From: a virus
Virus record (IMG/VR): IMGVR_UViG_3300027906_000042
Coordinates: 1-42,796 of that record
Reading direction: 5' to 3' (one strand)
Length of the DNA stretch: 42,796 bases
In this document: positions 10,170 to 42,796 of the stretch, piece by piece
Numbering within the stretch: position 1 is the first letter of the stretch
How the letters are laid out: every line of letters starts with the position of its first letter
Notes under the pieces: model-generated
What the model saw: the letters and a program-made list of their open reading frames with translations, nothing else
Database searches by the model: none
Told to the model about the DNA's origin: nothing
Made by a program: the position numbers and the translations under genes

Positions 10170-13100
10170 TTAAGTTGGGTTAACGTTGAATCTAATTCTC
10201 ACTAGATATGTAGTATTTGCATCAAGATTAACATTACCAGGAAGTGTGTAAGATACTAAGTTGGTTGAGTTACCAAGAGATTGATGTAAGATAGTTGTAA
10301 ACTGTGGGTTTGATACAGGTACTTCTGCATTAGGAGCAAACTGCCAATCACTAGAAGTATGTTGATAACCAGTCTTTAGTGCAATAGCATCAACATTAAT
10401 GGTTGGATTAAATGCTGGTGTTATTGTTTGAATGTCTGGTTGGTCAACAATAGGTGTACTGAAGTTTGCTGCAGTAGAGTATGCACTCTCCAATCCAGCA
10501 TTGTCTCTGAATTTAACTTGTACAAAATAAGATGTATCAAAATCTAAAATCGATACAGGAACAGTAAAGGTTGTTAAGTTACCTGTGTCACCCTGAGCAA
10601 ACGTTCCACTTGTATCATATACAGTGACGTTATCACCAGTTCTTCTTATCCTCCAGAATGTAGAGTAATGAGTTGACCCTGCATATTCAGAAACGAAAGG
10701 AGCAGTATTGATAACTGGTTGTCTTGAAAGCGTCTTACTTGTATCAGAATCAACAGTTGGAGTTACTGTTGCAGGACCAGATACAAACTCAGATTCATTA
10801 ACAGTAAGAGTTACTGCATTTGAAGTTACTGAAGTTGCTTCAGTATTTGAAAGAACACAACGGAACTGTTCAGCTGGATTAGTTGGGAATATAGTTGTTG
10901 GTGTAGTATAAGCAGAAGCATTGGCACCATTAATATTAGACCATGTGCTACCAGAGTTAATTGATTTCTGCCATTGGTATGAAATTACATCACTAGTAAT
11001 TGCAGCAGTAATACTAAATGTTGCGGTCTGACCCTCAATAACAGCTGTATCTACTGGTTGTTGACTGACAGTAATAAGTCTTAGAACAGTCAGTTGACCA
11101 TGATCTGAAGTTATTGATGCAGCAGATCCAACAAGAGAAACTACACAACGATAGCGATCATCGTCATCATTTGCATGTACTAATGTTGGTGTTGTATATG
11201 TTGCACTTGTTGCACCACCTACAGATGCATAGTTTGAACCATTGTCATCAGATCTTTCCCACTGATATGTTGGTGCTCCACTACTTGAAGTTGCAGTAAC
11301 ACTGAATGCAGCAGTTGCACCTTCATTTGCAGTTGGGTTAGAAGGCTGTGCAGTAATTGAGAATGTTCTCTGTACTGTTAAGGTTACGTTATTTGTATAT
11401 GCAGAGTTGGATGCTCCAGTTGCATCTAACTTACAACGATATAAATCTTGGTTATCTGCAGCATATGTTAAAGCAGCAGTTGTATATGATGCAGCTGTTG
11501 CTCCTGCAACGTTGCTCCAATTTGAACCAGCATCATCTGATTTTTCCCACTGGTATGTTACTGAGGGTTCGTGATGGGATTGGGTTTCAAATCCTCCTCC
11601 ACCTCCTCCAGTAGGGGTTGTGAAGTTCTCAGTATCAAAGGATGAACTAGCAGCATTACCACCAAAAGGTTGCATAGTAACATCACCCAAGCAAGTGAAC
11701 GTTGCAGTAGCATTTTCATTGACTGTCTGATCTGTTGGTTGAGTTGATACTACAACTGTTACTGTTTCTACTTGTAACGTTGCAGCATTTGAAGGAATAG
11801 TTGTTGCTCCAGGACAAGATAACAAACAGCGATATTGATATTCATCATATGCTGTAGTTAATGTAGGAGTTGTATATGTTGCTGTTGTACCACCAGTACC
11901 TTCAATTACATTAGACCATGATGCACCATCAGTAATTGATACTTGCCATTGGAATGTAATATCTCCAGCATCATTATCAGATGTAGTTGCAGCAACTCCA
12001 AACTGTTCTTGACCACCAACAGCACCAGTTGTATTAGTTGGTTGTGCTGTGATATTGATAGTTCTAGTTACTAAGCTTCTTGCAACAGAACTAGTTACAT
12101 TGGCTGCACCTGCTGCAGCAAGAACACAACGATAGTAATCTCCATAGCTGTCATCATACGAGGTAGATCCTGTAGTATATGTTGCAGCGGTTGCACCACC
12201 AATAGATGTGTAAGATACTCCATCACCATTCTCAGATTTCTCCCATTGGAATGTGATAGGAGCAGAATCAAGAGTACTAGCAGCAACAGTAAATGATGCA
12301 GCTGCAGGTGCAACTGGAGATGAATCTACTGGTTGATTACTTATAGTAATAGTACGGAATACTGTTAGTGTAGCAGCATTAGTGTTAGATGGTTGTACTG
12401 CTGTAGTAGTATCTAACTCACAACGGAACTGATAAGTATTCTTAGCAAAGTCATCATCAACAGTTAAAGTACTTGTAGTTACTCCACTGTATCCACCACC
12501 ATTACTTAAATTAGACCAACCTACACCACCATTACTTGAGTATTGCCACTGATAGGTGATAGTAGATCCATCAGAACTAATACCTGCAACAGGACCAAAC
12601 GTAGCAGTATTTCCAGATCCAGCCTCAACAGAAGCATTAGATGGATGCTGAGTTATATTAACAAGAACACCAGTACCTGAAGTTGTGAATGAATATGAGC
12701 GAGCACTACCTGTAATATTCTCAGTAACTGTAAAGTTAAAAGTAGTATCAATATAATCTGAAGTTACAGTACCAGTAAGAAGACCTGTAGTAGTACCAAG
12801 AGCGAGACCTGAAGCAGCAATACTATCACCACTAAGACTATATGATTCTAATGTTGGTTCACTTGCAAATGTACTACCAGCTAATCCAAGGTCAACATTA
12901 ACATTAGCACCATTTGCTAATGGACTTACAGCTAAAGCACCAGCTGCAGTTGCCCAAGTTACATTAGTATCAACATATGGGAAGAAAGCACCTCGTGTAA
13001 CTGTAAGTGGAGATGTGTTAGCATCATACTTAAAGTCAACACCTGTATCTAATGGATAATAAATTACATTGGTATATGTACCAGTACCAGCAGCTTCCTG

Positions 13101-15314
13101 TACATCTGTCTGAGATCTTAAGGTTGTTGATGTAGCAACTACACCATCAGTGCCTTCATGAAGTTTACTCTCAGGATCTACTAAAGCAAGATAGTTATTT
13201 GATCCACCACCAGTAGTACTAGCAGTAGCATTAGCAAGACCATATACAGTAACAGTATTATTGACAGCACTCTCTGCCTGAATAGTCATAAAACCATTCT
13301 GTGATAATGCAGCAATATCTAAACCACCAACTGTTAAAGCACCAGTAGATCCAGTTGTTCTTAACTGGACTTTCTTACCAACGTTACCAATGAAATGTGC
13401 AGAATCTGCAGGGTCAAAAGATATCTTAAGTTGATTACTAGTATTTGTTGTTTCAAATGGATTGTCTGGTAACTTCTTATCCACCATACTATTGGTTGGA
13501 TAATTGGTATGAGCACCTTGAGTAATATCACCAGCACTTCCAGTACCTCTAGCAAAAGCTTTTGCAAGTCCCGCTATATTGTTAGTGCTAAGAGTGTATC
13601 CATTCTTTCCACACCATGCAGCAATAATTCCAGATACTAAAGGACATGAGAATGATGTACCATTAATAGTACTATAGTTTGCTGAACTAGTATATGGTGT
13701 ATTAGCAGTCCAGTCATATTGTGGTGTTAAGATTCTGGCACCTGGTGCAACTGTTGTACATCCAGCACCATAGTTTGAGAAGTCTGCCCATCTATCATTA
13801 TATTCTGTGGCACCAACGACAATCTTTTTCTGATTAGTATCTACGTTGTTAATACCACCAACTGCATTGTCATCATATCCAGCGGTTCTAGATCCAGCAA
13901 TAACCTTAGTTTGTAAAGGACCAACGAACACATCACTATTATTTTTAAATCCATTACCTGCAGATCTACAAACAATGATAGCATGGTTAGAAGAAATTGT
14001 TCCTTCAATATCATCTAACATTTCCTCATCAGTTCCACTATCAGCACCAGAATCATTTAATTCAACATATGGATATCCTTCTGATGGTATAGTAGGACCA
14101 AAGGATGCATTGATAATAGCAGGTCGAGTATTGTTTTTATAATTTCCATTACCACTGTCGTTATGATCTATAACTGCCTGATATGCACTAAGAATTGCAG
14201 TATAGGATCCAGAGTTACTAGCATTAAATGCTTTTAGTGCATAGATCTTTGCATTCTTTGCAACACCTGCAGTTCTACCAGCAGAGAGAATGGCACAATA
14301 AGTTCCGTGGCCATTATCATCCTCATTATTAGATCCATAAGAACCAGCGTAATGAGATAGTTGATGAACTCTATAGTTCTGTTGCTCAGAAGCACCGTTT
14401 AAATCAGATACAAAGTCTGGGTCATATAGTTCTGGATGTAGAGCAGCGTTGTTACCAGTTGGTCTACTTGCTCCACGAACACCTGTATCAATTATATAGA
14501 TATCAACACCATCAGCTGATTGATTGTAACTATACTGTCCGTTTAAATATTGACGATCTTGTTTTGTTATTCTATCTAAATGCCAGAAGTCATGTACGTT
14601 AATTGTTCCGTATCTACTAATAGGAGTATATGAATACCTACCCATATTAGAATGAGCAGTACAATAGAAGAATAAGACTGAAGGGGTTGAAGCACTAATA
14701 GCAATTACTGTAGTACCATCTGTACCTGGCGTACCTGAAGTAGTTACTCCAGTTGCATATTCTGCACCACCAGTAGTATGAGTTCCATCTGGTGTTAAAG
14801 AGAATCTAAATGGATGTCCAGCATTTGAAGCGTCTGACTGGTCAAATGTATATGTACCACCTTGAGCAAAACCAGTTTGGTTTGCATATAAAGAATAAGT
14901 TCCACCAAGAGTGGACGAGAAAACAAATAGATCATTACCACTAAAATTCTGTACCTTCACATAAATGGTACCTGCACCAGTAGTAGTTAGATTTCTAGTA
15001 TTAGCAGTAGTATTACTCTCACCAGTAGTATTCAGATTTAATGGATCAGAATTATCTACGGTTAAAGTTGCTCCTGTATCAACAGGATCTACAGAAAATT
15101 TATCTTCAGCATCCCAAGTACATTTCTTAACTGGCCCCAAAGCATTCAGCTTTTCAAGCAATCCACTTGAATACTTATCGGGACAATCAAGAGTTATGAT
15201 TGAAAAACTTCTAAATGATTCTTTAAAGGTGAGATAACCGTATAATTTTAGAATTGCTGCAGCAGCGGAATCCAAACTATAATTATCAGATACCCTAACG
15301 ACTACCCTCTTCAT
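10170..15314 (-). CDS. Giant subtilisin-like (S8) protease with cupredoxin-like insert and six Ig-like domains
   Basis: A 1714-residue multidomain protein. Residues 1-80 resemble a subtilisin I9-type propeptide, ending CTWDAEDKFSVDP. Residues about 85-235 are an insert with GGTYTFDQSDASNAGHPF and a C218-x2-H221-x2-M224 motif plus H167, like a type-1 copper site. Residues about 245-600 are an S8 catalytic domain with the full triad: D276 in YIIDTGVRG, H336 in NGHGTYCAILSAG, S554 in NGTSFSCPLVSG. The oxyanion Asn is expected in CRSAGNGF. Residues about 880-1505 hold six Ig-like repeats and 1510-1714 two FN3-like modules. There is no signal peptide, so it is probably virion-incorporated. It has its own late promoter and is followed directly by gp13, the place T4 gives to wac (fibritin). 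The protease fold is certain; the substrate is unknown. Confidence 0.9.
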   Translation of the reverse strand: MKRVVVRVSDNYSLDSAAAAILKLYGYLTFKESFRSFSIITLDCPDKYSSGLLEKLNALGPVKKCTWDAEDKFSVDPVDTGATLTVDNSDPLNLNTTGESNTTANTRNLTTTGAGTIYVKVQNFSGNDLFVFSSTLGGTYSLYANQTGFAQGGTYTFDQSDASNAGHPFRFSLTPDGTHTTGGAEYATGVTTSGTPGTDGTTVIAISASTPSVLFFYCTAHSNMGRYSYTPISRYGTINVHDFWHLDRITKQDRQYLNGQYSYNQSADGVDIYIIDTGVRGASRPTGNNAALHPELYDPDFVSDLNGASEQQNYRVHQLSHYAGSYGSNNEDDNGHGTYCAILSAGRTAGVAKNAKIYALKAFNASNSGSYTAILSAYQAVIDHNDSGNGNYKNNTRPAIINASFGPTIPSEGYPYVELNDSGADSGTDEEMLDDIEGTISSNHAIIVCRSAGNGFKNNSDVFVGPLQTKVIAGSRTAGYDDNAVGGINNVDTNQKKIVVGATEYNDRWADFSNYGAGCTTVAPGARILTPQYDWTANTPYTSSANYSTINGTSFSCPLVSGIIAAWCGKNGYTLSTNNIAGLAKAFARGTGSAGDITQGAHTNYPTNSMVDKKLPDNPFETTNTSNQLKISFDPADSAHFIGNVGKKVQLRTTGSTGALTVGGLDIAALSQNGFMTIQAESAVNNTVTVYGLANATASTTGGGSNNYLALVDPESKLHEGTDGVVATSTTLRSQTDVQEAAGTGTYTNVIYYPLDTGVDFKYDANTSPLTVTRGAFFPYVDTNVTWATAAGALAVSPLANGANVNVDLGLAGSTFASEPTLESYSLSGDSIAASGLALGTTTGLLTGTVTSDYIDTTFNFTVTENITGSARSYSFTTSGTGVLVNITQHPSNASVEAGSGNTATFGPVAGISSDGSTITYQWQYSSNGGVGWSNLSNGGGYSGVTTSTLTVDDDFAKNTYQFRCELDTTTAVQPSNTNAATLTVFRTITISNQPVDSSPVAPAAASFTVAASTLDSAPITFQWEKSENGDGVSYTSIGGATAATYTTGSTSYDDSYGDYYRCVLAAAGAANVTSSVARSLVTRTINITAQPTNTTGAVGGQEQFGVAATTSDNDAGDITFQWQVSITDGASWSNVIEGTGGTTATYTTPTLTTAYDEYQYRCLLSCPGATTIPSNAATLQVETVTVVVSTQPTDQTVNENATATFTCLGDVTMQPFGGNAASSSFDTENFTTPTGGGGGGFETQSHHEPSVTYQWEKSDDAGSNWSNVAGATAASYTTAALTYAADNQDLYRCKLDATGASNSAYTNNVTLTVQRTFSITAQPSNPTANEGATAAFSVTATSSSGAPTYQWERSDDNGSNYASVGGATSATYTTPTLVHANDDDDRYRCVVSLVGSAASITSDHGQLTVLRLITVSQQPVDTAVIEGQTATFSITAAITSDVISYQWQKSINSGSTWSNINGANASAYTTPTTIFPTNPAEQFRCVLSNTEATSVTSNAVTLTVNESEFVSGPATVTPTVDSDTSKTLSRQPVINTAPFVSEYAGSTHYSTFWRIRRTGDNVTVYDTSGTFAQGDTGNLTTFTVPVSILDFDTSYFVQVKFRDNAGLESAYSTAANFSTPIVDQPDIQTITPAFNPTINVDAIALKTGYQHTSSDWQFAPNAEVPVSNPQFTTILHQSLGNSTNLVSYTLPGNVNLDANTTYLVRIRFNVNPT
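10796..12675 (-). repeat. Six tandem Ig-like domain repeats (coding)
   Basis: Six units of about 95-130 residues each show a QP or HP start (ITAQPTNTT, VSQQPVDTA), a central F/Y-QW-E/Q-x-S core (YQWQKS, FQWEKS, YQWERS), an xYTT stretch and a Y/F-RC-x-L core (YRCVL, YRCKL, FRCEL). The tryptophan and one cysteine are retained, but the partner cysteine of classical Ig domains is missing in most units. The fourth unit is enlarged by an insert with a run of six glycines and QSHHEPS. Boundaries are approximate. Confidence 0.85.
14640..14860 (-). other. Cupredoxin-like domain inside the S8 protease
   Basis: The segment encoding residues about 150-226 runs from TYTFDQSDASNAGHPF to FFYCTAHSNMG. It has the order His167 ... 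Cys218-x2-His221-x2-Met224, the ligand order and loop spacing of amicyanin-type type-1 copper sites. A related segment lies at the right edge of the window. That it binds copper is inference. Confidence 0.55.
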
Positions 15315-15329
15315 TCTGACAGTGCACTA

Positions 15330-16535
15330 TTATCCTTCAGTTGTATTTATACTGAAAAAATTGGATAGTCTTTTTTCCATTTCATAAAAGAATTCATCAT
15401 CCCATAGGAAATTGGCAATAATTCTCATAGACTTATTCCTAGTCTTTGTTAGAACTATTCCTGATTCCTGCAATTCCTCTTGACTTAAATCCCTATGTGC
15501 ATCTAAAGATAGTAGCAAACCACTAAGTCTATACCCTGTAATATAGTTTTTATTTAATAAACTTTCAGAAACAGATCTGAGTTTATCTTCTATACCTTGA
15601 CATTTACTAAACAAATTCTCACGTACAATAATATCATTAACTGTATTCATAGCAGATATACCTGTCATGGTAGGTTGCCAAGTATGCCCCCAAGTCCAAT
15701 CCTTTTTCTTTATTACATCCCCAACCTTCTTATTAGCAACAGCACAACCAAGAGGTGTGTATCCAGCAGTTAAAGATTTTCCCAATGCAGATATATCAGG
15801 TTGTACTCCATACTTCTTATACCCATGGTAATCTCCACCCTTACCCCAACATACTGCACAATCATCACTCATCATAAGAATATCATTCTCATCACATATA
15901 TGACGAATCATTCTCCACCAAGATTTTGACCATGGAATACCACCATTAATCCATGGTAGAGTTTCCATAACTATACATCCAATCTTTCTCCCACAACAGT
16001 TATATGATTTAATAACAAGATCCAAATACTTAAGTGCTTTCTCCTCAGCCTTTGCTTGATCCTTTACATCTTTCCATATAGGAGTTGGTACCTTCTTAAG
16101 TCTCTTACTTACACTATCAACCTCACTCATATCTCTAGTGAGGAATGTTGTTCCATGATAGCTTGGTGTAAAGGTAACGATATAATTACTTTGATTACCC
16201 CAATACTGATCATTCATTTTGATTGCAGCTTCAACTGCAGATGATCCAGATATAGCCCAAGACAAAACATCCCAGTTGCCTGTTGAGCAAACTAGGTCTG
16301 TCATTTTTATACACAATTCAGAAGTCTCTCCTCGATTACCTCTGACAAAGTTAACTTCAGGTGCCAAAGCACCCATTACTTCTTTATTACCGTAACCTAA
16401 TATATACGCAGAATTTCCAGACTGAAGATCTATAAGTCTAGTTCCATCAGAATATTCTATCCAATACTTATCTGTCTTAGTTACAACTTTATCTAACGGT
16501 TCTTTACTCCAAGCCCTAAGTTCATGATAGCCCAT
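15330..16535 (-). CDS. Class-III PLP aminotransferase, BioA-like
   Basis: A pyridoxal-phosphate enzyme of the class-III aminotransferase family, 401 residues, slightly shorter than bacterial members (about 430). Visible motifs: DGTRLIDLQSGNSAYILGYG near the N-terminus, SGSSAVEAAIKMNDQYW (close to the BioA sequence around its GSVAVE motif), PSYHGTTFLTRDMS, the PLP-ring Asp in MSDDCAVCWGKGGDYHG, and the Schiff-base lysine K253 in ALGKSLTAGYTPLG. All key residues are present, so it should be active. The amino donor and substrate are unknown; diaminopelargonate, ornithine, glutamate-semialdehyde or an amino-sugar are all possible in this fold. It overlaps the preceding gene by 14 bases, and the late promoter of the S8 gene lies in its last codons, so it is part of a late operon. 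Confidence 0.88.
   Translation of the reverse strand: MGYHELRAWSKEPLDKVVTKTDKYWIEYSDGTRLIDLQSGNSAYILGYGNKEVMGALAPEVNFVRGNRGETSELCIKMTDLVCSTGNWDVLSWAISGSSAVEAAIKMNDQYWGNQSNYIVTFTPSYHGTTFLTRDMSEVDSVSKRLKKVPTPIWKDVKDQAKAEEKALKYLDLVIKSYNCCGRKIGCIVMETLPWINGGIPWSKSWWRMIRHICDENDILMMSDDCAVCWGKGGDYHGYKKYGVQPDISALGKSLTAGYTPLGCAVANKKVGDVIKKKDWTWGHTWQPTMTGISAMNTVNDIIVRENLFSKCQGIEDKLRSVSESLLNKNYITGYRLSGLLLSLDAHRDLSQEELQESGIVLTKTRNKSMRIIANFLWDDEFFYEMEKRLSNFFSINTTEG
15344..15351 (-). promoter_or_regulatory. Late promoter TATAAATA for the protease-neck-terminase operon
   Basis: An exact T4-type late box, read TATAAATA on the minus strand, about 30 bases before the S8 protease ATG. It lies in the last codons of the aminotransferase gene (encoding Ser-Ile-Asn-Thr). 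The following genes down to gp17 have no comparable gap, so it probably drives the S8, 13, 14, 15, 16 ... 17 unit. Confidence 0.8.
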
Positions 16536-17302: not shown

Positions 17303-18040
17303 TTAACCTGCAAAAGTATTTATAGACCTAAAGTATGAGGTTCTCTGTAGATGCATATCTTTTTGATTTGGCTCATCACATTCCCAATCTGGATTAAAAC
17401 CCCTCTTCATTGGTATGATATGAGTGAGTGGAGTTCCTGCTTTAATGATTTCAGTACCTTCATTCACATGCCAATATAACTGAGAGATTACTTTAGTTGA
17501 TTCCAATGGATCTAATATACCAGTCACACTAGTAAATCTTCTCTCCTCAGTGTAATGTAAGTTTGTTACCAAGAATACGACATCTTTTCTACTCTTTCCT
17601 ACTTGCCAACCTGCATCAATCTTTATAATACTTTCATTAGTATTATGAGGAGGAGGGCAATATTCATGAAGTACTTCAGGGTTATGCACAGCACAAGGAG
17701 CAAATCCTAGTTGACTATGTGAGAATGGAACATTGACATTGATAGTCTTACCATCACCATTGGTATTAATTCTAACATCAAATGGACACACTAGAATATA
17801 TCCAGTATGAAATAAATTATTCAATCCAGGACATCTACTAATATTTTTAATAAATGTACCAATATAATTGGATGTATAGAACTGTGGTGAGAAAGGACAG
17901 TTTGCTTTTAACTCATTAAGTTTCTCTTTATACTTCTTATTCGGTTCACTCATCCATTTTCTAGGGATCTTGGATGCTGATACAATTGGATATTCCTCAA
18001 GAATTCCAGCGATGGAATTCGTAAATCTAATTTTTGCCAT
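17303..18040 (-). CDS. Unknown protein with Cys/His motif, paired with 2OG oxygenase
   Basis: A 245-residue protein with a compact alpha/beta look: ITFxNS-like start (KIRFTNSIAGILEEYPIVSA), then HTGYILVCPFDVRINTNGDG, a Cys/His-rich motif C116-x2-H119-x5-H125-x2-C128-x3-H132, and a C-terminal WHVNEGTEIIKAGTPLTHIIP segment. The last part resembles phage and bacterial proteins of unknown function that end in a GTP-x-QIIPFKR-like stretch. It overlaps the oxygenase gene by 14 bases, so the two are co-translated and may act together. The Cys/His cluster could bind a metal. Function unknown. Confidence 0.8.
   Translation of the reverse strand: MAKIRFTNSIAGILEEYPIVSASKIPRKWMSEPNKKYKEKLNELKANCPFSPQFYTSNYIGTFIKNISRCPGLNNLFHTGYILVCPFDVRINTNGDGKTINVNVPFSHSQLGFAPCAVHNPEVLHEYCPPPHNTNESIIKIDAGWQVGKSRKDVVFLVTNLHYTEERRFTSVTGILDPLESTKVISQLYWHVNEGTEIIKAGTPLTHIIPMKRGFNPDWECDEPNQKDMHLQRTSYFRSINTFAG
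17317..17324 (-). promoter_or_regulatory. Late promoter TATAAATA before the 84-residue gene
   Basis: An exact TATAAATA on the minus strand, 24 bases before the ATG at 17293 and inside the last codons of the preceding gene. Confidence 0.75.
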
Positions 18041-18677
18041 TACTAAAGTTAAAATTAATTAAACATCTACGTCCTTTCTGTGGTGGAGAACCAGCATGAT
18101 ACTGTCTCGAAGGGAACTGGATTAGTGTACCTGCTTTAGGGGTAATCGAATCAATTGGTTCCCATTTATTATTTCTTCTATTATCCATAGCAATATCATC
18201 ACATGTTTCCTTAAAAAGAAAAGTATCTCCAGTGCAATCATGTGCATAGTATATAAAACTCCACACATCATGTTGAGACTGTTGACAGTCTGTGTGTGGA
18301 AGATAATGTTTTGGTGGATCTGATATATCAGTTTGTAATATACCTCTAGTACGATAATTTCTATATTCAGGAATTATCTCATCTACAATCTTAGAAGTTA
18401 ATCCAATGAGAGAGTAATGAATAGGTCCATGATTAATTTGACCCATGTTAAGTATCTCCAGAACAAACTGATGATATTTCACATTATGTCCCATTTCAAA
18501 TTCAACTTCATCCTTACCAACACCCGCCAAGGCATCATCACCTATACCATAATCCATGTTAGGTTGATATAACCATGGCTGATTGAACTGCATTAATCCA
18601 GATTCAATCTCCCTTTGGTATGCTGGTCCTACAAAGTCCTCATAGACTTTGAATTTATCAAAGTGTGTAAACCCCAT
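18027..18677 (-). CDS. 2-oxoglutarate/Fe(II)-dependent oxygenase
   Basis: A 216-residue non-haem iron oxygenase of the prolyl-hydroxylase-like type. The facial triad is visible: H128 and D130 in YLPHTDCQ, and the distal H194 in RQYHAGSPPQKGRR. The 2OG carboxylate is expected to bind R203 or R204, 9-10 residues after H194. The strands between (SFIYYAHDC and TGDTFLFKE) fit the double-stranded beta-helix, as does the following ITPKAGTLIQFPS. These enzymes hydroxylate proteins, nucleobases or small molecules; the substrate cannot be read from sequence. It is followed by the Cys/His protein with a 14-base overlap. T4-like marine phages often carry such oxygenases. Confidence 0.9.
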   Translation of the reverse strand: MGFTHFDKFKVYEDFVGPAYQREIESGLMQFNQPWLYQPNMDYGIGDDALAGVGKDEVEFEMGHNVKYHQFVLEILNMGQINHGPIHYSLIGLTSKIVDEIIPEYRNYRTRGILQTDISDPPKHYLPHTDCQQSQHDVWSFIYYAHDCTGDTFLFKETCDDIAMDNRRNNKWEPIDSITPKAGTLIQFPSRQYHAGSPPQKGRRCLINFNFSNGKN

Positions 18678-20627: not shown

Positions 20628-20635
20628 TTATTTAG
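20628..20635 (-). promoter_or_regulatory. Late promoter-like box CTAAATAA before the glycine-rich adhesin
   Basis: CTAAATAA on the minus strand, about 28 bases before the adhesin start. The final TAA is the stop codon of the upstream methyltransferase fusion gene. It is identical to the box before gp18. Confidence 0.5.
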
Positions 20636-22361
20636 ACAGGACAAGAACATACAATCCATTCCACCACATTTTAGAATCTTCTGGATCGTTAAGAAGTTCT
20701 CTTTCATATAAAATCTTAAGTTTACTAGCTTCAACAAACCTTTTGGTAATTGCTACATTGTTCTCTATATTTGCATCATCTATAATCAACGTAAATATAT
20801 CTTGAGTAAAATTCAACATATTAAAAAAGAACTCTCTCATTTTATGCTCTGCATTGTCTCCATCATAGAATATAATATTTACATCATGCTTAAAATCATT
20901 CTTAGAAAGATTAGATGAATCACCATTCAATACTTGAATATCAAAATCTAAAGTATCAGTAGTAATATTAGTTTGTAAATTCTTAACGAATGTACTTACA
21001 GTTACATCTTCCAATCCTAATTTTATATCTTCTCGAGCTGGTTGAAGATTTGGTTGTGACCAATTATCATTTGCATATGCTCCTACCATATCGTTATTCT
21101 GTATAGCAGCACAGAATGTAGAACCAGCATATACTCCCACCTCAAGATAGACAGCACCTTCCTGGGAACAGATATTGTTTAGGAAATGTCTAACCCTAGG
21201 TGATGATAAACCTTCTATATTATAGTAAGCATCTGGGTCATTAGGATCATATGTTTTATGATTAGATATGTATTTACCAGAGTTAATGAAAGCTTCTATG
21301 CAAGTCTCTACTTGTGGGTGTACTATTAGATCCTCTTTTTTCATATGAGATTCTACAACTCTCTCACAGTAACTACAATCCCAACAATCAAACTTACAAG
21401 TTTTAATCTTTTTCCTCCATGCATTAATAGGAGCATCTTTCATTTTTAATTCTGCCTGGTACTTCTTGTACTCAGGGAACATATATTCTTCTTTATCTGC
21501 CCACCTCTTAATAAGATCCATACTCTCTTGGAGTCTCATCATACTTTCTCTACCATGTAACTTAAATACATCAATACCTAAGTTGAGCATCTCTTCCCAA
21601 TCCTCTCTCCATGGTGGAAGATTTGCTTGTTTCAAATCATACTCTGGGTGCTCTACATCCCAAGTAGAACATGATACTCTACTAATAGCACTAGCAAAGA
21701 ATATAGGATCCTTTGGTCCTCTTGTACTATTATATTGATAATGCTCTGGCATAATAGGACAACCACCCCAACATGTTTCATTGACTAGCATTGATAACAT
21801 GATAGGCTTACCTATAAACTTACAGTAATCCTTTGCCTTTCTAATTTCAAGTAATTGATCATGGTCTCTCATGAGATCACGATCTAAATTAACATAATGA
21901 AATCCTGCTTCTGCTAAAGCAACAACTTCATTTGCTCTAGTTACTTCCCTTAATATAGTATTTTTAATAAACAGATCTGGGAATGCTTGTTGAATCTGAC
22001 CAGTAGATACCCATGATGTATGCGGAAGAGTTACAACTCTAGCTCCAGCATTATAGATAGGAGCAAAATTTTCAATCCATTCATCTAAATTCTTTTGATC
22101 TGGTCGTACCCATATATTATTAAAGGTAGCAGATAATGGAATGTTACTTGTATTTGAAATATAACAAGCAGATGATATTAAAGATTCTGGCGAATAGAAA
22201 CAATCCCCCATAGCGTCCTGATCGAACGGGGGAATCCTACATGTGAAATATAAATCTAGTATATAATCTCGATACTCTATAAGGAACGGGATGAACTTAT
22301 TGACTACAAAGTCTTCATCCAGCTTTGGATTGATCGGGAGACTGAAGACTCTTCTGTTCAT
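20628..22361 (-). CDS. Two-domain enzyme: U32-like barrel plus class-I SAM methyltransferase
   Basis: A 577-residue fusion. Residues about 1-310 resemble peptidase-U32-like TIM barrels: AGARVVTLPHTSW, AEAGFHYVNLDRDLMRDHD, and GKPIMLSMLVNETCWGGCP with C197 and C201. A cysteine cluster C322-x3-C326-x2-C329-x2-C332 follows, a likely Fe-S or zinc site. Residues about 380-577 are a class-I methyltransferase: motif I YLEVGVYAGSTF (residues 405-416), then VNIIFYDGDNAEHKMREFF and TLIIDDANIENN. Members of the U32 family modify tRNA, rRNA or ubiquinone precursors with Fe-S help; this one's substrate is unknown. It overlaps the upstream gene by 47 bases; an AGG lies before the ATG. The methyltransferase call is strong, the barrel call moderate. 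Confidence 0.8.
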   Translation of the reverse strand: MNRRVFSLPINPKLDEDFVVNKFIPFLIEYRDYILDLYFTCRIPPFDQDAMGDCFYSPESLISSACYISNTSNIPLSATFNNIWVRPDQKNLDEWIENFAPIYNAGARVVTLPHTSWVSTGQIQQAFPDLFIKNTILREVTRANEVVALAEAGFHYVNLDRDLMRDHDQLLEIRKAKDYCKFIGKPIMLSMLVNETCWGGCPIMPEHYQYNSTRGPKDPIFFASAISRVSCSTWDVEHPEYDLKQANLPPWREDWEEMLNLGIDVFKLHGRESMMRLQESMDLIKRWADKEEYMFPEYKKYQAELKMKDAPINAWRKKIKTCKFDCWDCSYCERVVESHMKKEDLIVHPQVETCIEAFINSGKYISNHKTYDPNDPDAYYNIEGLSSPRVRHFLNNICSQEGAVYLEVGVYAGSTFCAAIQNNDMVGAYANDNWSQPNLQPAREDIKLGLEDVTVSTFVKNLQTNITTDTLDFDIQVLNGDSSNLSKNDFKHDVNIIFYDGDNAEHKMREFFFNMLNFTQDIFTLIIDDANIENNVAITKRFVEASKLKILYERELLNDPEDSKMWWNGLYVLVLSK

Positions 22362-26484: not shown

Positions 26485-29400
26485 TTAAACAATGCTCCAC
26501 GTACCGCCATTATTAATCGTGATCGTATTTCCATTATTTATAGTGATAGGGCCTGCGCTCATTGTGTTATCACCGTTATTTACTTGGATATCCTCAGCAA
26601 CAGTATCTCTGTTACGTCTGAATATTCCGTAAGTATCAATCCACAATTTATCGCCACTTGCTCTTAGAACTGTGCTCTTCTGACCACTTGATAATCCTTC
26701 AGATGCATTCAAGTTAACACCATTCAAACCATTAACTTGTAAACCATATGTTGATTGTGTCGTATCACTACCTGAGTAGAATGTCCAACAACCATTATCA
26801 TTAAGTGAACCAATAGATGTATCAGCATCATTCCTAAAGAAGAAGTCGGAACCAGTTCTAAAGTATGTGTGAGAATTATTAGAGAAGTAGAATCTTGGTT
26901 GACCTTCAGAACTATCGTTCCAAGTGTTAATAAGTGCTCTTAAGTATGGAAGGTTGTTTGCAGTATAACCTTGTAGTTGTGCTGCGTTAAGATTAGTACA
27001 CTCTGTAGTAGAAGAAACTACGATAGGTGAAGTACCAGTTGCAACTGTAGATCTTAGAACATTAGTTGTGCGAATATCACCAGCAACATCAAGAAGATAA
27101 CTTGGTGTTGTATCATTAATACCAACGTAGTATGTTCCACCATCCTGTCTTAGTGTTACTATATCATTATCAGTGGCAGATGAATTTCTAAGACCAAATC
27201 TAGCAATTGCTCTGTCGCCACTCTCACGACCTGATTTGATGTATAAACCACGATCATTACCATGATGACCAACTCTAAGAATAGCACCACTGTCATTTGA
27301 ATCATTACCTGCAGCGAAGTGTGCTATTTCTTTATATCCTGATGAACCACCACCATCTGTTACTGCAAGTAGTGTAGTATCTGTACCAGCCGAGAAGTTT
27401 GCTTGTGGATCGTTAGTACCAATTCCAAGTCTACCTCCACGGAAGTGAACGTTGTTATATGATAGAGATGTTCCATCCCAACCAAAGTCATTACCATCAG
27501 TACCAAAGCGGATGTAACCAACAGAACCACTGTTTCTACCCTTAACGGATAGTGAGTTAGTTGCTGCCTTACCTAGGTCAACACCATTACCACCAGCAAG
27601 TTGTAGGACAGAAGTACCAGTGTTATTGAAGATACCTTGGTCACCAGTTAAATCGTTAACTGTAAGGTGCCCAGAAGCGTCTCTACGGGCGATTGTATTA
27701 CCACTGGCAGCAGTAGACTGGACAAATCCATCTAAGTAATGAGCGTCTAGCTGTGAGGAACTACCATCATTACCTGCGTGCCACACGGTGTTACCGTTGA
27801 CGGTGATATCACCAGTGTTAATTCTTAAAGTACCGTTTCCATCGTTGGTGTTACCACCAGAAACGATCATCTGAACATCATAGTTTGGAGCTTGTCCAGA
27901 AGAACGGAAGTCAAGTGTTGGGGTTGTGGAAGTAGCTGCCTTACCAATTTGTAGTTTAGCACCTGCAGCAGCATCACGTAATCCAATAACTGTAGTAGAA
28001 CCACTGGAGATTGGGTTGGATGATGTTACAGTCCACTTGGTGCCTGGGTTAGGACCAACAACATAAATGTTTGCATTAGTATTATTACCAACAAATGCGA
28101 TTGTACCTGTGACTAAGGTGTAGACTTCACCAGATGTGTGAGTTGCTTCAGTAACACCGTTAGCATCAACTACGATAGAACCAATGTTATTTGTTGCACC
28201 TACATCAGAGTAGATAGTGTAAGTACCACTTGGGTTAATATTACCGTTAGTACCAGTTCTTGCGTGATAGTCTGGGATGTAAAGTGTGTACTTCAGTCCA
28301 CTGTCATTAACATAGAAGTTCTCAAAGACCATCTTGTCCTGACCGAGGACTTCAGGTAAGAACATATCACCCATAGGTTTGTTAATACCACCTTGGGAAG
28401 CACCGAAGTTATAACCAGACTGATACCATAGACCTTGATGTGCATCTAGTTTATCAGCATCTAGGCCGCTTGCGGCACCATCATTAGCACCTGACCAGAT
28501 TTGATTCCAGTTACCATATACAGCATTACCACCAGAGTTACCTCTAATCCAAAGGTTGTCATTATCAGTCCAACCTAGCTGAATAGCAGCAGAACCTGTT
28601 GCTTCTCTTCTGTAGGTCGTAATACCATGTGTGGTACCACCATCAGTTAGACCAGTTGCACTGTTATTTCTTAATGCAGCAGATACACCATTCGCTGCCT
28701 GAGCAGGACTTGGGTTAGAAGTTAGAGATGCAGTCTCGTTAAATATTCTGTTTGCAGTATCTGCAGTACCAGATATAGAAATGTTATATGTGGTATTTGC
28801 AAGACGTGCAGGGTCAATAGTACCAGCAGTTAAGTTACCTGCATTCTGATAGAATGCACCGTGGTTACCATCCAGTTTGTCAGCATTAAGTTCAGATCCA
28901 GCACCCTGATCAATAGTTACCTGACCATTATTGTCAATTACGAAACCACCTTGATCTTGGTTACCGACTGCCTGGTTAGCAACATCCTTACGGAAACGGA
29001 ATACACCGTAGTTACCATAGACAGTAGCAGCAGGTGTTAAGTTATCACCCTTTCTAATATCAATCTCAATGTTACCATAAGATCTATTAATAGTACCCTT
29101 AACAGCAGCAAGGATCGCTCCATTACCACCACCAAATTCAGCAGGAATTGTAATACTAAATCCAGCAGTATATCCTGTACCAGAGTCAGTTATAGTAGCA
29201 GATGTAATTACACCAGAAGTAACGATGTAAGTTGCTCTTGCAACACCAGTGTCAGTAACACTAACGTTACCACCTTCAAGTGGAATGTTCTGATAGGTAC
29301 CATCTGTATATCCAGTACCACCATTAGTAATTGTAATACTATCGATGTATGTACTATCTGTTAAAGATCCACCAACAACTACACAATCCTGAGTAGTAGG

Positions 29401-32400
29401 TCTAATTGCTTGTAGTGCATACTCCCAAGAAGAATCACCACGTAAGAATGTGTAAGAGTTTGAAGTTCCCTTACCAGCAAGACGTTCTGGGTCAACAACA
29501 CCAGCAACAATGTTAGAAGCATCAATGTTGGTTGATGTTAACTGTGTCCAGTTTGCTGCGTTAGATGCAGAAGTGTTAATTACTCTTGCAAGGTCAATAA
29601 TTCTCTTACGAGAAACGTTACCAGAAGTAGTTACTGAAGTAGCAGAAGTTACTGTATACTGATTAGCATTGACTAGAGAGATAGTATAGAAACCATCATT
29701 AGAAGCACCACTAGTGAAATCTAAGTAAACAAGAGATGCATTGGATAGGTTATGACCATTCTCATTAATAGTAATTGTTGTAGCACTCTGAGTGTAAGTA
29801 CCAGTGCCTTCATTAGCACCTGCTCCATCAAGAATGAAATCACCAGCATCAAACTTGATATTATTTGCAATATTAATTGCAACTCTACCTTCAATCTGTG
29901 CAGCAATTACAGCAGTAGTTCCTGATCCTGGAGGAGTTACTGTTACTGTTGGCTGACTATAATATCCAGAACCAGCGTTAGTAATAGTAACCTTAGTTAC
30001 AACACCACTTGTTACATTAGCAGTAGCAGCTGCCTGTGTACCAGAACCTGAATCAGGTGCGCTGATTGTTAGTGCAAAGTCACCAGTATATCCAGTACCA
30101 CCATCACTAATAACGAAGTTATAAATTTGACCATCGTTATATGACTGAATAGTACCACGAGCAGTAGTAGAACTACCAGTTATGATATTACCATTGGTGA
30201 ATGCGTAATTCTGATTAGGAATGAATGCTAAGAACTGAGATTCTAAGTCATTCTCCAAGATGTAGGAGATTGCAGTACCATCAGTTGTAAACGTATGAGT
30301 ACCTGTACCTTGACCAGTAAGGTCAATAGCAGTACCATTTGATGCGTTTGATGTTGTAGAAGCAAGCTTAACGTTGTTATCATCAACCTTGATGACAAAG
30401 TACTTGGTAGCAGTTGAAAGTCCACCAATCGCTGTTGTTCCCTCAGTGTATGTTAAACCATCACCAGTGTTTCTACCATGACCTGTAATAGTAATGGCTT
30501 CAGTACCTGTATTAACAGAAGCAGGAGCAACACTAAATGATGTAGCAGTTGTTTCAATTGCAATGTCACCAGCACTTGCATCCTCGATAGCAAGTCTTTC
30601 TGCTTCAGATGCAACTGAAGTAATATTAAATGGACGTAAAGCAGGTATCTGGTCAATATTGATCTTACCTGAAGATGTTAACTGAACCAGTGCAGAAGGA
30701 ACTGCGTTTGTTGAATATGGCTGGTTTAGATATGGTCCAAGATTATTTGAAATGTAATCCTTGACAGATGCCTGTGTAGGTAGTAAAGCATCAGATGCGA
30801 AAGTACCACCAAGGTTATCATCGTCAGAGAAACCAGTAATCGTGATGTCACCACCAACGATCTTAATGGATGATAGTTCAGAGATACTAACAGTACCAAC
30901 GAAACTAATGTTACCAGTTCTGTTGTAGATAGTAACGAAATTACCAACCTTAAAGTCACCAAATTCGTTAGTACCAGAGGTATAAACCTGACCGAAGGAT
31001 TGTTCTGAAGCTTCGTATGCAGTACCTAGACCGAAACCACCGTTCTGTGGTAGGGCAGCATAAGTATTACCAGATCCAGAGTATTCCCAAGTATGTGATG
31101 AGGAGTTAACAATGGATGGTCTGTGGAATTGGATTGCTCTACTTACAAGACCACCTAAGTTACCATCAGCATATCTGTAACGAGTATTAGGAGATGCTGT
31201 ATCGGTATAGTCCATCGACCTGTTGGTCGTGATCTTAGCAACAATCTGAGTTCCTGGAGAACCACTAATAACCTCAGTCTCAAGAATGATGTGCTCAACA
31301 GCAGGGTCAGTTGGTGATGTACCACCAATTCTAATGATATAATCCTCTGTTGGAATATTAGTTAGAGCTGTACCAGAGACTTGAATAACCTGTCTACCAG
31401 TTTCAACTTGGTTTCCATCAACATCATTAGTGATAGAATCAATAACACCAATATCAAATGCATATGGATCTGCTCTAAATCCAGAGGCACGTAGAGAATA
31501 TGTACCAAAGTTAGATGCAGAGTTAGTAACAGATGCGTAACCACCAGACTGACATACAATACCATCTTGACAGAAGATAGCGAATACAGAAACGACCTGT
31601 GTATATCCATCATTGGTTATGTTGTATCCAGTACCACCAAAGGAGATGATAGTGAATGCGTTTGCAACCATCGACTTACCTTGTGGGTCGAATTGTGCAA
31701 TAGTATTACCTTGTGAATTAAGTTTTAGACCTGGGCGAGGTACGTTTGGTGTAGCACACTTCGCTCCGTCAATATCACAACCAGAACCACCAAGGAATGA
31801 AATCAGAGAAGCGTTCTGAATGAATGGAGATGCCTCAATAACAGGCAAGTCTAAGAAAAGATTTAATAATGGGAACGTATACTTAGCAGCATCCTGCTCA
31901 CTAATGAGAGGATCTGGATTTGTTATCGTACCGCTATATGCAGTGGCACTAGATAAAACATTGTCTAATATACCCCAATTGGTAGTGAGTGCAGAAACTA
32001 CGTTAGCACACTCAGGAGCACTTGAATCTACAGTAATTGAACCATTAGATACTGGAGCAATCTGTGAGAAGAAACCTGCTTCAAGGTTATTTCTAATCGC
32101 CTTGATGCACAACTCTTTGGCATATGCAAAGATTGCACGAGTGTAATCTACTTCTTCAGTAACGTGTGATATTGCACCACTAGTAATATACTTGTTAGCA
32201 GCTTCAACTGTCTTAGAGTTACCAGTGTATCTAAGGTCATACTGGAACGCTCTAACAACATGAAGAATGTCATCAATACATTGTTGATCTCCTTCAGATA
32301 CTGTTCTTACTACGGAATTTAAGTTTCCATATGAACCATCTGTACCTAAAGCAGTTGTAACGATAGCGAATAAAGTATCAGTTGCAGAAACTACATCAGT

Positions 32401-35400
32401 ACATGTTGGTGTAGATGCAGCAGTGTCAGTAGCATGTGCAAGACTATCAGTTGCGATTGCTTGTTCTACAATAGAGAATAAAGTATCAACTGTTGATTTG
32501 GGAGTTGCACAACCATTAGGATCAACTGTAATAGTAAGATCTTTAGTCTGCTCTACTCCATGCCAACCTCTAATGTTAACTGTTTCGTTAGCAATAACTT
32601 GTTGAGTGATATCACTTGCAATCTCAAATACAGCACGAGCTTGGAATTGTTCTCCATCTACATGAGTAGTTCCAACAAAGTATCCTGCATGATCGTAAAC
32701 AGCATCATTACCGCCATTGACCAAGTTGTATGCAACTGCTCTTAGAACATCAGAAGCATCATCCTTACAATCTTGATTATGATTTGGAATTGTAAATCTT
32801 GGATTCGCAATTGGGTCAGTTGCACGAGGATATGTGTGATTACCTGCACCATGACCACAACTATAGATTATGGAATTAGTTGCAATCTTAACTGTAGATC
32901 TAGCATAGCTAATGGCATCAGCAGCAGCACTCTGATAAGTGTGAGGTGTTGTATTAGTTGAAGGAACTGTATCTAATACTTGTACATCAAATGTATTAGC
33001 AGTTACATTAGCAATCGTAACCCACTTATTAGCAATTGGGTCTGTTGAACGAGGATATGCGGTTGTTCCACCACTACCATGAGTACAACTAAAGCTTATA
33101 GCACCAACAGCAAACTTAACTTTATCACCAACCTTAAATCCATGATTGGTAATAGTGACAGTCATGATACCTGTGAGAGGATCATAAGCACCACCAGATG
33201 CTGTATGTGTAGTAGGAGCTAAGAAATTATTCGATCCAATAGTAAGAACCATAGCACCCGTATTTGGGTCATAGGTTGAAGCAGATGGATTGTAATTATT
33301 AATGGTAGAAGAAGTTGCTCTCTTAACACCATTTGATGTTGCACTTATCCATGTGTGTGCATAGTTACCACCAGTGATAACTGAGTTTCCTAATGCAGAT
33401 TGATAAGCATGTGTTGTAGTGTTAGTTGAAATACCAACATCAAGAGTAACTGTAGTTCCAGTAGTTGCTACAACAGGAACTGAAGTGTTATATGACTTGT
33501 CACGCTTCTGTGTAATTCCACCTGATGTTGCAGATACAAATGTATGAGTATCAGTATTTGTAGATGGAATTGTAGATAATACCTGTACCTCAAATGTGGT
33601 TGAAGTTACATTAAAGATCTTCTGCCATTTTCCAGCAATAGGATCAGTTGCTCTTGGATAAGACTTCTGAGAAGCAGGTCCAGATGCACCACCAAATGCA
33701 CAACTGAATGTGATGGAATTTTCAGCCATCTTAATCCAGTCACCATTTCTCATTCCATGAGCAGCAGTGGTGGTAATTTTCATGATACCTGTAGCAGGAT
33801 CATAAGTTGTACCAGCACCAGCAGTGTGTGAATCTACGGTAGTTCTTGGATATGAGTGCTCAGTTGACTGACTATCTTCATCACACTTAAATGTAATAGC
33901 ACCGTTAGTTAACTTAATATTCTCTGCAACGTGCTTTAATGAATTGGATACTGCTGATACAAATGTATGAGCATCATTAACTGTTAATGCTGCACCACCA
34001 GTACAATCAAACTTAAATGTATTTTGAGTAACACCCCAGATGTTGACCCACTTACCATCTAAGTACTGACCTGCTTTTGGATAACTTTCTGAACCACTAC
34101 CACCATAAGCACAACTCATAGTGATTGCACCAACAGCAAGATTAATCTTATCTCCCTCTTGGAATCCGTGATCATTAATAGTCACGGTCATGATACCTGT
34201 GCTATTTTCTAAAGTAGCACCAGTAGGAGTATGTGATGTAGGAGCTGTTATACTATGGTTACCTATAGTAACTTCCATTAGACCCGTTGTAGGGGTGTAT
34301 ACAGCGTTTGTGGGGGTATATGTGACGGGGGGTGTAGTACCTACGTTAATATCAAAAGTATCAGTTGTGATATTAGAAACACTCTTCCAAACATTAAGAG
34401 CTGGATCAGTTGCTCTTGGATATGTGTGCTTGGAGAAGTTGTCATCCATTGTACATGTGAATGTCAATGAATCTTGTGCTACCTGTACTTTCTCACCAAT
34501 AGTGAAACCATGACCAGGAATTTTAAGAGTTAGTACACCTGTTATTGGTTCGTATGATGCACCTGTTACAGTGTGCTGAGTATATCCAATATCATTGTAA
34601 ACAACAGCTCTTGTTATAGCGGTTGATGTTGCACTTACAAATGCATGAGCAGTAACATCAGTTTTTGCTTTACCGACATTAACTTTAATATTATTAGCAT
34701 CTACCTTACGTACACCAATATACTTGTTATAGTATGGGTCAGTTGTACGAGGGTATGTCTTAGTAGCAGTGTCTCCATCCAAGTCACAAGTGAATGATAA
34801 TGAGTTAGGAGCAATTAAAATCTTATCTCCATCTACAAATGGGTGGCTAGCAATAGTGATAACCATCTCACCTGATATAGGATCATATGTAACATTCGTT
34901 GGTTGGAACTGATATGTACTTAAACCTTGGAATGTATGTGCAGTAGTATTAGTTGGAGTAGTACCATTAAGTGCATTTATAGTAATATCATTACCACTTA
35001 CTGCATCAATTGGAGTCTCAGTAAGACTTGAAATAAAACGCTCTACTGCTTCTTCTGAGATAAACTTATTATTAACATTAATTAAATTAGCAGCATCCTG
35101 AGTTAGGTTAGGTACAGTACCATATGTTGCTCTATCAAGAGTAATAGTTTCATACTGTTGAGGATGAGTAGTATATGGATGTCTTAGAATCGGTAGATTA
35201 CGAAGAACCTTCTGAGCATATCCTTTAGCAAGATTAAATGCAGTTACATACTTACTCTGATTACTTGTAGTTACATCCTTAAGGAAGTAGTTAGCAGCAT
35301 CATATACTCTATCATTACCACCCCATTTGAGGTTGTGATAGAGGGACTTCTTAAGGAAGTCTTTGATATCATCAGTACATGCTGTATTGCCAGTAGGTAC

Positions 35401-42600: not shown

Positions 42601-42796
42601 CACTAGTATCAAACTTATATGTGTTATTATCAATTAAACTAAAGCTTGCAGCTTCAACTCCATCAATTACCCATCTGTTTGCAGCAGTTTGTAGGGTAGC
42701 GATTCCAGCAGTAGCAGTACTAGTTCCACCAACAGCATTCTCTACGTTAGCATCTTGGAACGCACCAGTTACATTACTTAAGAAAATATATTCGTT
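39620..42796 (-). CDS. Fibre-like structural protein, N-terminus cut by right edge
   Basis: Open from the right edge to the stop at 39620: 1058 residues are visible and the start is outside the window. The first internal ATG (42424) is not the start: the 124 codons before it are open and encode a cupredoxin-like segment with H72 and C118-x2-H121-x3-M125, whose Met is that ATG. Then come GSGY-type repeats (GSGYQIGDVLSVSDTNVGGG, NGGYGFEATDTLILG; visible residues 125-300), a fibre shaft (LAQDGRLTLGPTGANTIISP, SFTGLGTFNAGINVDGA, RLDADKIGIAVAGSAKGS), more GSGY units, the module PGAIRYNTTQLQFEGFNGTDF, and a beta-rich C-terminus with FEVKRNGISVAKVRTKKDF. It lies upstream of the giant fibre and could be a gp10-like baseplate fibre or another long fibre. 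Confidence 0.82.
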   Translation of the reverse strand, partial: NEYIFLSNVTGAFQDANVENAVGGTSTATAGIATLQTAANRWVIDGVEAASFSLIDNNTYKFDTSDASNTNHNLQLGTATNVQTRQSNINPGSAGSYWEVVVGAQSAVAGEGTTDYRCVQHGADMGLGGTITFTTGAAGQSGVGMTVDLTISGGAVTAATIVNQGTGGNYAVGHTFFVDADDVGGTGSGFVYTLSGAQTGITVVSDISPIGSGYQIGDVLSVSDTNVGGGGGSGFGFTVASVGVPSTVTVSNGGYGFEATDTLILGEVAVGETQGSGLVVGISTLNQTKSIQLAQDGRLTLGPTGANTIISPDGQIAATSWSVTASGSGTFNALSSQTSLSSTTTLSVGSTSSFTGLGTFNAGINVDGADSDIKRASLQLADGSAAAPSLSLTNSNTTGFYRLDADKIGIAVAGSAKGSIGANGVDIHKFQVDATPDSLTPFFKVDSSTNKVQIGSAATNLEIDATNTITTGGTDLNVPLNFDTKGEGNFVFNGGTNVDFSITDGSTETFKIDTENGDATFTGNLDAGLLRLVDNTVQNNSSTATRSFGQILGITVSGTGSGYTDGTYTATATTSSGSGTGCTVTVTVASGTFSAVTVVAKGQNYSVGDTLLITAAGGGSGKTITVNDIDGSGVVLKPSSGSDILCETTGSLVVPSGTTNERPAALDRRPGAIRYNTTQLQFEGFNGTDFVSLGGVRDVDQDTYILTESAPGSDEDTFEFFAQGVNCLSVDKDKLTFKTSKLLSVPGTLIVDGTDNSVDSFEVKRNGISVAKVRTKKDFEVTGGLRLRAVPIQGTIATIGSPTSTSGVYTASTTFTGVAGTGEFEGVGATFDVVVDGSQNITSVALNAAGTGFESLETVTIAGNLLGAATPANDVTFTVTAIANTAPAFARLDVVNQDFVSQLDSKPFISLDGNAAQAAWKINRGWNAGTTSYLTVFDSTGDFVELDDCRVEGGQLTSFASNASITAFDKTTYKGAKTLITIESDDGKVHMFEVTAVCAAAGTAAHATITNSITSDNDLMDATVAVAGNSINISLNKSSAATTSTSFTGRYTTTKVKV
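42421..42650 (-). other. Cupredoxin-like segment in the edge fibre
   Basis: Visible residues about 49-126 run from NTYKFDTSDASNTNHN to DYRCVQHGADMG. They parallel the insert of the S8 protease: TY-FD-SDASN-xH, then C-x2-H and a Met. The Met spacing is x3 here and x2 in the protease. Copper binding is inference. Confidence 0.5.

Follow-up and report, generated by a model that had tools for sequence, protein, structure and literature searches.

A predicted blue-copper-type cupredoxin domain at the propeptide-protease junction of a subtilase from a T4-like phage

Introduction

Known blue copper proteins carry electrons or form parts of oxidases. Amicyanin, plastocyanin and pseudoazurin (PF00127) share the cupredoxin fold and the ligand order His-Cys-His-Met with the domain described here, but they are free periplasmic electron carriers, whereas our domain lies inside a phage protein of 1714 amino acids. 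This protein is a subtilase encoded on the IMG/VR virus record IMGVR_UViG_3300027906_000042, and the whole stretch of DNA analyzed, referred to as the window, is a 42.8-kb contig (42,796 nucleotides) of a T4-like phage with genes for terminase, sheath, tail tube, neck and sheath stabiliser. Some cyanophages carry plastocyanin (petE) as a metabolic gene; this is also a phage-encoded cupredoxin, but a free photosynthetic carrier of the host type and not a module of a large protein. The subtilase resembles pro-subtilisin E, pro-Tk-subtilisin and PCSK9, with which propeptide and catalytic domain can be overlaid, but has in addition a cupredoxin at the junction of these two domains and immunoglobulin-like (Ig-like) domains at the C-terminus.

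Fold and site are known and the setting, phage structural proteins, is new. A search of the open-licence PMC literature, with subscription papers and preprints outside its scope, retrieved no paper describing cupredoxins in structural proteins of phages; some of the domains may already carry a label in fold databases. Metal centres in tail proteins have been proposed in the form of HxH iron-binding motifs in phage tail fibres, where iron sits between paired His residues of the fibre, in contrast to the cupredoxin with Cys and Met in the window (PMC11705849).

A cupredoxin domain with four predicted copper ligands

The 1714-residue protein contains a domain that is almost certainly a cupredoxin with a metal site under selection. 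Its conservation was followed in the close relatives (59 distinct sequences from 80 IMG/VR loci and the window) and in A2, a profile alignment of the domain family with 16 diverse phage members of 26-67% identity to the window. The corresponding features are:

10170 to 15314, minus strand: subtilase of 1714 amino acids with propeptide, cupredoxin, protease and C-terminal Ig-like domains (open reading frame (ORF) and domain search)
14619 to 14981, minus strand: cupredoxin domain of the blue copper type, residues ~112-232 (model confidence, cupredoxin matches, profile chain to plastocyanin)
14814 to 14816, minus strand: H167, first predicted copper ligand, in 59/59 distinct close relatives (window included) and 16/16 members of A2
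14661 to 14663, minus strand: C218, predicted copper thiolate ligand, in 56/59 close relatives, lost only jointly with H221
14652 to 14654, minus strand: H221, predicted copper ligand, in 56/59 close relatives
14643 to 14645, minus strand: M224, predicted axial ligand, in 58/59 close relatives with one Leu; Gln in 7/102 representatives of the family

The four residues are located where a preliminary description of this DNA had placed them, with the spacing H-x50-C-x2-H-x2-M. That description had assigned 80-90 residues to the domain, which corresponds to its second half only; the actual length is about 120 residues, and three predicted strands lie upstream of H167 (model residues 30-74, equivalent to 114-158 of the protein). 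Residues 85-240 contain a single Cys and a single Met. The pattern H-x40-65-C-x2-H-x2-M occurs once in the 1714-residue protein. Shuffling the whole protein 20000 times reproduced it in 4 cases, and 20000 shuffles of residues 85-240 gave it in one. The length of the C-x2-H-x2-M loop is that of amicyanin, which supports the amicyanin-type loop proposed before.

An AlphaFold2 model of residues 85-240 (model 1), calculated from an input of 50 window and IMG/VR sequences, reached a mean pLDDT (predicted local distance difference test) of 81.3 and a pTM (predicted template modelling score) of 0.79, with core values mostly between 85 and 98. C218 closes the strand E129-134 and H167 just precedes the strand E85-88 (model numbering); these strand ends are the positions expected for the Cys and the first His of a cupredoxin. 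Using this model, Foldseek retrieved laccases, CueO and copper nitrite reductases from the PDB besides SO1698 entries, and the best match in VIA was 2dv6 (Z 7.8, root-mean-square deviation (rmsd) 3.2, 104 aligned residues), with laccases and ceruloplasmin within 1 Z. The best structural matches are the N-terminal cupredoxin of the Hyphomicrobium denitrificans nitrite reductase (2dv6), two-domain laccases and ceruloplasmin. Identity to the window domain is 14% for 2dv6 and 8-12% for laccases and ceruloplasmin, and no multicopper enzyme architecture was seen in the window protein. Nearly all Foldseek and VIA matches besides SO1698 are cupredoxins; together with the profile chain to plastocyanin described below they support the Greek-key beta-sandwich of a cupredoxin, as had been suggested. 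In BFVD, beta-sandwich proteins of Pithovirus LCPAC302 (E 5e-5) and Marseillevirus LCMAC201 (E 2.2e-4) weakly match the model.

Sequence link to blue copper proteins

The profile chain runs through a sister module, a second and shorter module near residue 700 of the same subtilase in P-HM2, MED4-213 and many IMG/VR orthologues. All 33 sequences of its alignment (A4) keep H, C, H and M. Comparison of A2 with A4 by hhalign yielded a probability of 96.2% and an E value of 2.3e-9, with the four ligands in register. Against the PDB, the A4 profile matched plastocyanin (E 7.1e-6) and the nitrite reductase 2dv6 (3.3e-5), followed by amicyanins (E 0.0025 to 0.18) and rusticyanins; the best 60 of the 67 matches at E<=1 consist of blue copper proteins and copper enzymes, including a single fragment of cytochrome c oxidase subunit 2. 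Pfam Copper-bind matched 22/33 A4 members at E<=0.01. The type-1 ligand set His-Cys-His-Met, in this order, is thus borne out by its register with a module related to blue copper proteins.

A Pfam search of the window domain itself gave no match, the cut-offs of PF00127 (Copper-bind) and PF13473 (Cupredoxin_1) not being reached, and an NCBIfam search, amicyanin TIGR02657 included, gave none either. With PF00127 the sister modules of MED4-213 and P-HM2 scored 15.9 and 19.8 bits (cut-off 21.2), and with TIGR02657 the MED4-213 sister module stayed below the curated equivalog score (15.7 bits against 110.2). The top phmmer match in the PDB, ascorbate oxidase (E 0.0036), places C218 opposite an Asn and is followed by antibodies; it was not used as evidence.

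Constraint on the metal site

The preliminary description had named free loss of Cys or His in homologues as an observation that would speak against a metal-binding cupredoxin. This check was run and such free loss was not seen. C218 is absent from 3/59 close relatives, and the second His is missing in the same three. The only invariant columns of A2 are F73, H83, F87, C134, H137 and M140, i.e. the four ligands and two Phe. By conservation the ligand columns rank 2, 3, 4 and 7 of 89, for which chance is 1.4e-5 on the assumption of independent columns.

For a broader sample, 389 sources (the window and 388 loci) were scanned with the A2 profile, which produced 555 domain rows, 522 of them spanning the site. 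These 522 rows are redundant, since two of the loci represent parts of the window and some contigs entered by two scans; we therefore quote first the 102 representatives obtained by reducing the spanning rows to below 80% identity. Their ligand sets are HCHM in 91, HCHQ in 7 and EATL, EGTL, YDYR and HNTM in one each, so that 4/102 are without both Cys and second His and 0/102 have lost one of them singly. Among all 522 rows the sets are HCHM (487), HCHQ (12), HNTM (10), EGTL (6), EATL (3), HCHL (2), YDYR (1) and YDFG (1); 501/522 have both Cys and second His, 21/522 have neither, and 0/522 have just one of the two. Where Cys and both His are kept, the axial Met is exchanged only for Gln or Leu, which are known axial residues of type-1 centres in stellacyanins and fungal laccases.

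Exactly one Cys is present in 477/487 HCHM domains, which argues against a disulfide as the role of C218. The 33 of 555 rows that failed the span filter, among them the window's second copy, comprise 24 second copies that belong to baseplate wedge loci and lack the first His, two copies from tail fibres (P-RSM6, S-WAM1) with the C-H-M part unaligned and seven fragments or rows without an aligned Met; adding the 24 baseplate wedge copies would raise the ligand-free count. The HCHQ representatives are C-terminal copies in the same subtilase family and may share one origin. As the ligand-free copies come from few lineages as well, the number of events is far lower than the number of rows.

Proposed role and points against it

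We consider it likely that residues ~112-232 form a true cupredoxin with an intact type-1 copper site, which belongs to a module family of marine tailed phages and has a metal-stabilised structural or contact role. For the parts of this proposal our confidence differs: that copper is bound in nature appears probable, while the choice of a structural or contact role over a redox one is evenly balanced. The domain would fold metal-free in the reducing cytoplasm of the host, with its single Cys staying free, and would acquire a single copper ion once the cell has lysed or at the host surface. Copper would then lock the beta-sandwich into a stable, protease-resistant surface module acting as a rigid spacer or contact domain, akin to the Ig-like domains in phage virions. 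In the subtilase, the cupredoxin lies at the propeptide-protease junction, so the site of autocleavage would decide with which of the two parts it remains.

Several points weigh against this proposal. The top Foldseek match of model 1 is SO1698, deposited as an aspartic peptidase, and the best VIA Z score of 7.8 lies below 8, a range for which the tool warns of a merely common arrangement, so that the fold match by itself is not decisive. The direct match of A2 to the PDB is weak and not significant (pseudoazurin, E 0.12, with C-x2-H aligned), and the profile of the close relatives alone reaches pseudoazurin at E 1.8. The plastocyanin link depends on the sister module; the window protein showed no copy of this module, which matches an Ig-like family too (24/33 A4 members). 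The peptides used for retrieval were short and in some cases included the C-H-M motif, and the profile derives from intact members; intact sites are therefore over-counted. Copper as the metal is what we infer from the sequence, and because most copper in seawater is held by organic ligands, copper loading is not guaranteed.

Spread of the module in marine phages

With the window domain as query, matches were obtained in 56 of 50,697 phage records, and with a module of the tail fibre type in 155. These 155 records bear the names of Synechococcus, Prochlorococcus, Pelagibacter or Methylophilales, or are called cyanophage, marine or uncultured. Among the annotations of the matched regions are tail fibre, baseplate wedge, virion structural and peptidase S8, and judged by sequence the predicted cupredoxin is a widespread module of marine phages that occurs in tail fibres, baseplate wedge proteins and subtilases. 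Subtilase motifs were detected in 132/405 ORFs with a spanning module, cut ORFs included.

Orthologues of the subtilase contain up to three copies. The additional ones follow the protease domain or lie close to the C-terminus; of 68 sufficiently long ORFs, 22 have a second copy behind the protease by profile and 46 by pattern. Baseplate wedge proteins of several phages (loci L276, L278, L291 and others) each hold a pair of modules, the first with HCHM and the second with EATL or EGTL. The protein of ACG-2014h has the module, and protease motifs were not found within its first 900 residues. The window has a probable second copy as well:

42416 to 42694, minus strand: second, divergent cupredoxin copy (probable) in a baseplate wedge subunit that is truncated where the contig ends (phrog_32294)

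It contains a His followed by YRCVQHGADMG, a pattern match to C-x2-H-x3-M, and was reported by the A2 profile and missed by the profile of the close relatives. A genome scan found 14 loci in bacterial or archaeal assemblies, some of which are probably phage DNA; a 3861-residue ORF carried by a Bacteroidetes contig of 1.06 Mb looks cellular, and so do two giant proteins from metagenome-assembled genomes of Flavobacteriaceae (L188, L189), which have two copies each, one with HCHM and one in which all four ligands are gone.

The recurrence in annotated tail fibre and baseplate wedge proteins speaks for copper-assisted attachment, a counterpart of the 'Ferrojan Horse' in which host metal-uptake receptors would recognise copper at tail or baseplate, or copper would bridge ligands of the host surface; iron in phage tail fibres via HxH motifs is discussed in the literature (PMC11705849). 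However, the named hosts (cyanobacteria, Pelagibacter, Methylophilales) are diverse with no common copper receptor shown, the module occurs also in secreted-looking giant bacterial proteins, and a buried type-1 site would be a poor handle for a receptor. We regard this function as unlikely.

Selection on four residues alone does not name the metal, and cupredoxin sites bind several metals in vitro. The same fold could hence hold a purely structural H-C-H-M centre for Cu(I) only, Zn(II) or another ion. Against this, the ligand set, the loop length and the exchanges of Met for Gln or Leu fit type-1 copper centres, and the profile search leads to blue copper proteins as relatives, which makes a different metal rather improbable.

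Returning to the type-1 copper module with a structural or contact role, cupredoxin modules with a selected site in structural proteins of abundant ocean viruses would be new to both phage and copper biology and would carry the discussion of phages as ligands of metals from iron on to copper, and the domain can be recognised in many tail proteins annotated as 'hypothetical'. A more tentative, somewhat doubtful extension is that marine tailed phages are copper-carrying particles, whose blue-copper modules would be loaded from seawater or the host surface and whose copper would act in attachment, entry or stability. Depending on its concentration, copper is either limiting or toxic for marine picoplankton. 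If the extension is true, virions would make up a class of strong oceanic copper ligands that has so far gone unrecognised.

Propeptide, protease and the remaining alternatives

The cupredoxin is flanked by two domains of the subtilase:

15105 to 15314, minus strand: subtilisin-type propeptide, residues ~1-70 (predicted strand-helix-strand-strand-helix-strand at 2-67, block pLDDT 83-93)
13485 to 14591, minus strand: subtilase catalytic domain, residues ~242-610 (PF00082, E 3e-25 at 269-580)

A second model (model 2; residues 1-628, 44 sequences) had a mean pLDDT of 64.5 and a pTM of 0.72, and because of this mean value it was used for the propeptide and the overall subtilase match only. VIA aligned model residues 1-610 with unprocessed pro-subtilisin E (Z 24.6, rmsd 4.0, 294 aligned residues), and the alignments to pro-subtilisin E, pro-Tk-subtilisin and PCSK9 all begin at model residue 1. 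In model 2 the N-terminal region has the ferredoxin-like beta-alpha-beta-beta-alpha-beta fold of subtilisin-type propeptides and is placed as in pro-subtilisins; a Pfam search of this region gave no match. Propeptide fold and pro-subtilisin E overlay thus place the cupredoxin between propeptide and protease, as the preliminary description had stated. The catalytic residues D276, H336 and S554 and the oxyanion residue N454 are invariant in 44/44 rows of the protease alignment (A3), which identifies an S8 protease. The rows of the H-N-T-M clade in A3 (L046, L052, L075) keep these four residues.

The peptidase S8 of Synechococcus phage S-BM3 (L389) is likewise a marine cyanophage subtilase (39% identity) with cupredoxin modules containing H, C, H and M. 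In contrast to the window protein it has no cupredoxin at the junction; one lies at residues 294-398 inside the catalytic domain, between GHGT 191 and AGNG 428, and another module at 694-836.

These findings bear on a redox role, in which the site would sense or transfer electrons and control how the subtilase processes itself at the host surface. The position at the propeptide-protease junction fits such a role, and marine phage subtilases hold cupredoxins in other places too, i.e. after the protease, near the C-terminus and, in S-BM3, inside the catalytic domain. The H-N-T-M clade, however, has lost Cys and His and retains the triad and N454, S-BM3 does without a cupredoxin at the junction, and only 132 of the 405 module ORFs have subtilase motifs. 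Redox control is therefore improbable in our view, and the copper gating of protease activation considered earlier is not supported in an obligatory form. A role in photosynthetic electron transfer is unlikely as well, because the named hosts include Pelagibacter and Methylophilales.

A metal-free, Ig-like adhesion beta-sandwich that retains the four residues for packing would agree with the ligand-less copies (EGTL, EATL, YDYR, YDFG), which keep the surrounding sequence signature, and with the Ig-like domains in the same protein, but is very improbable, since packing alone does not predict that Cys and second His vanish jointly in all 21 of the 522 rows with losses and all four ligands in 11 of these 21, and the ligand columns rank among the most conserved.

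Gene neighbourhood

The subtilase is the orthologue of PHM2_106 of Prochlorococcus phage P-HM2, which is encoded upstream of gp13-gp14-gp15; identity between the two is 66% in the cupredoxin domain and 74.5% in the protease. In transcription order the window gene is followed by an ORF of 271 residues, a neck protein of the T4 type and gp15, the sheath stabiliser, and the annotated order in P-HM2 (PHM2_106, gp13, gp14, gp15, gp16) is that of the window; the order in MED4-213 is likewise shared. Gene order and relatives annotated as structural, tail fibre or baseplate suggest that the protein is part of the virion. Its C-terminal part contains:

11136 to 11360, minus strand: best-scoring C-terminal Ig-like domain, residues 1319-1393 (PF13927, E 9.6e-8, 2 stretches)

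Further genes on the minus strand were noted. A tail fibre-type protein of 4186 residues (26485-39045) matches phrog_5342, a tail fibre family, and others; the A2 profile search reported no cupredoxin copy in it. A 577-residue ORF in the tail cluster (20628-22361) matches phrog_1458, of unknown function, and, below the threshold, a methyltransferase family (PF13578, E 7.7e-4). The gene immediately upstream of the subtilase, inside the tail gene cluster, encodes a class-III aminotransferase (15330-16535; PF00202, E 2.9e-45), for which the best 25 NCBIfam matches were all under the cut-off. A 2-oxoglutarate-Fe(II) oxygenase (18027-18677; PF13640, E 1.9e-8) is located amid structural genes, and S-H38 likewise carries oxygenases of this type close to its cupredoxin-module gene.

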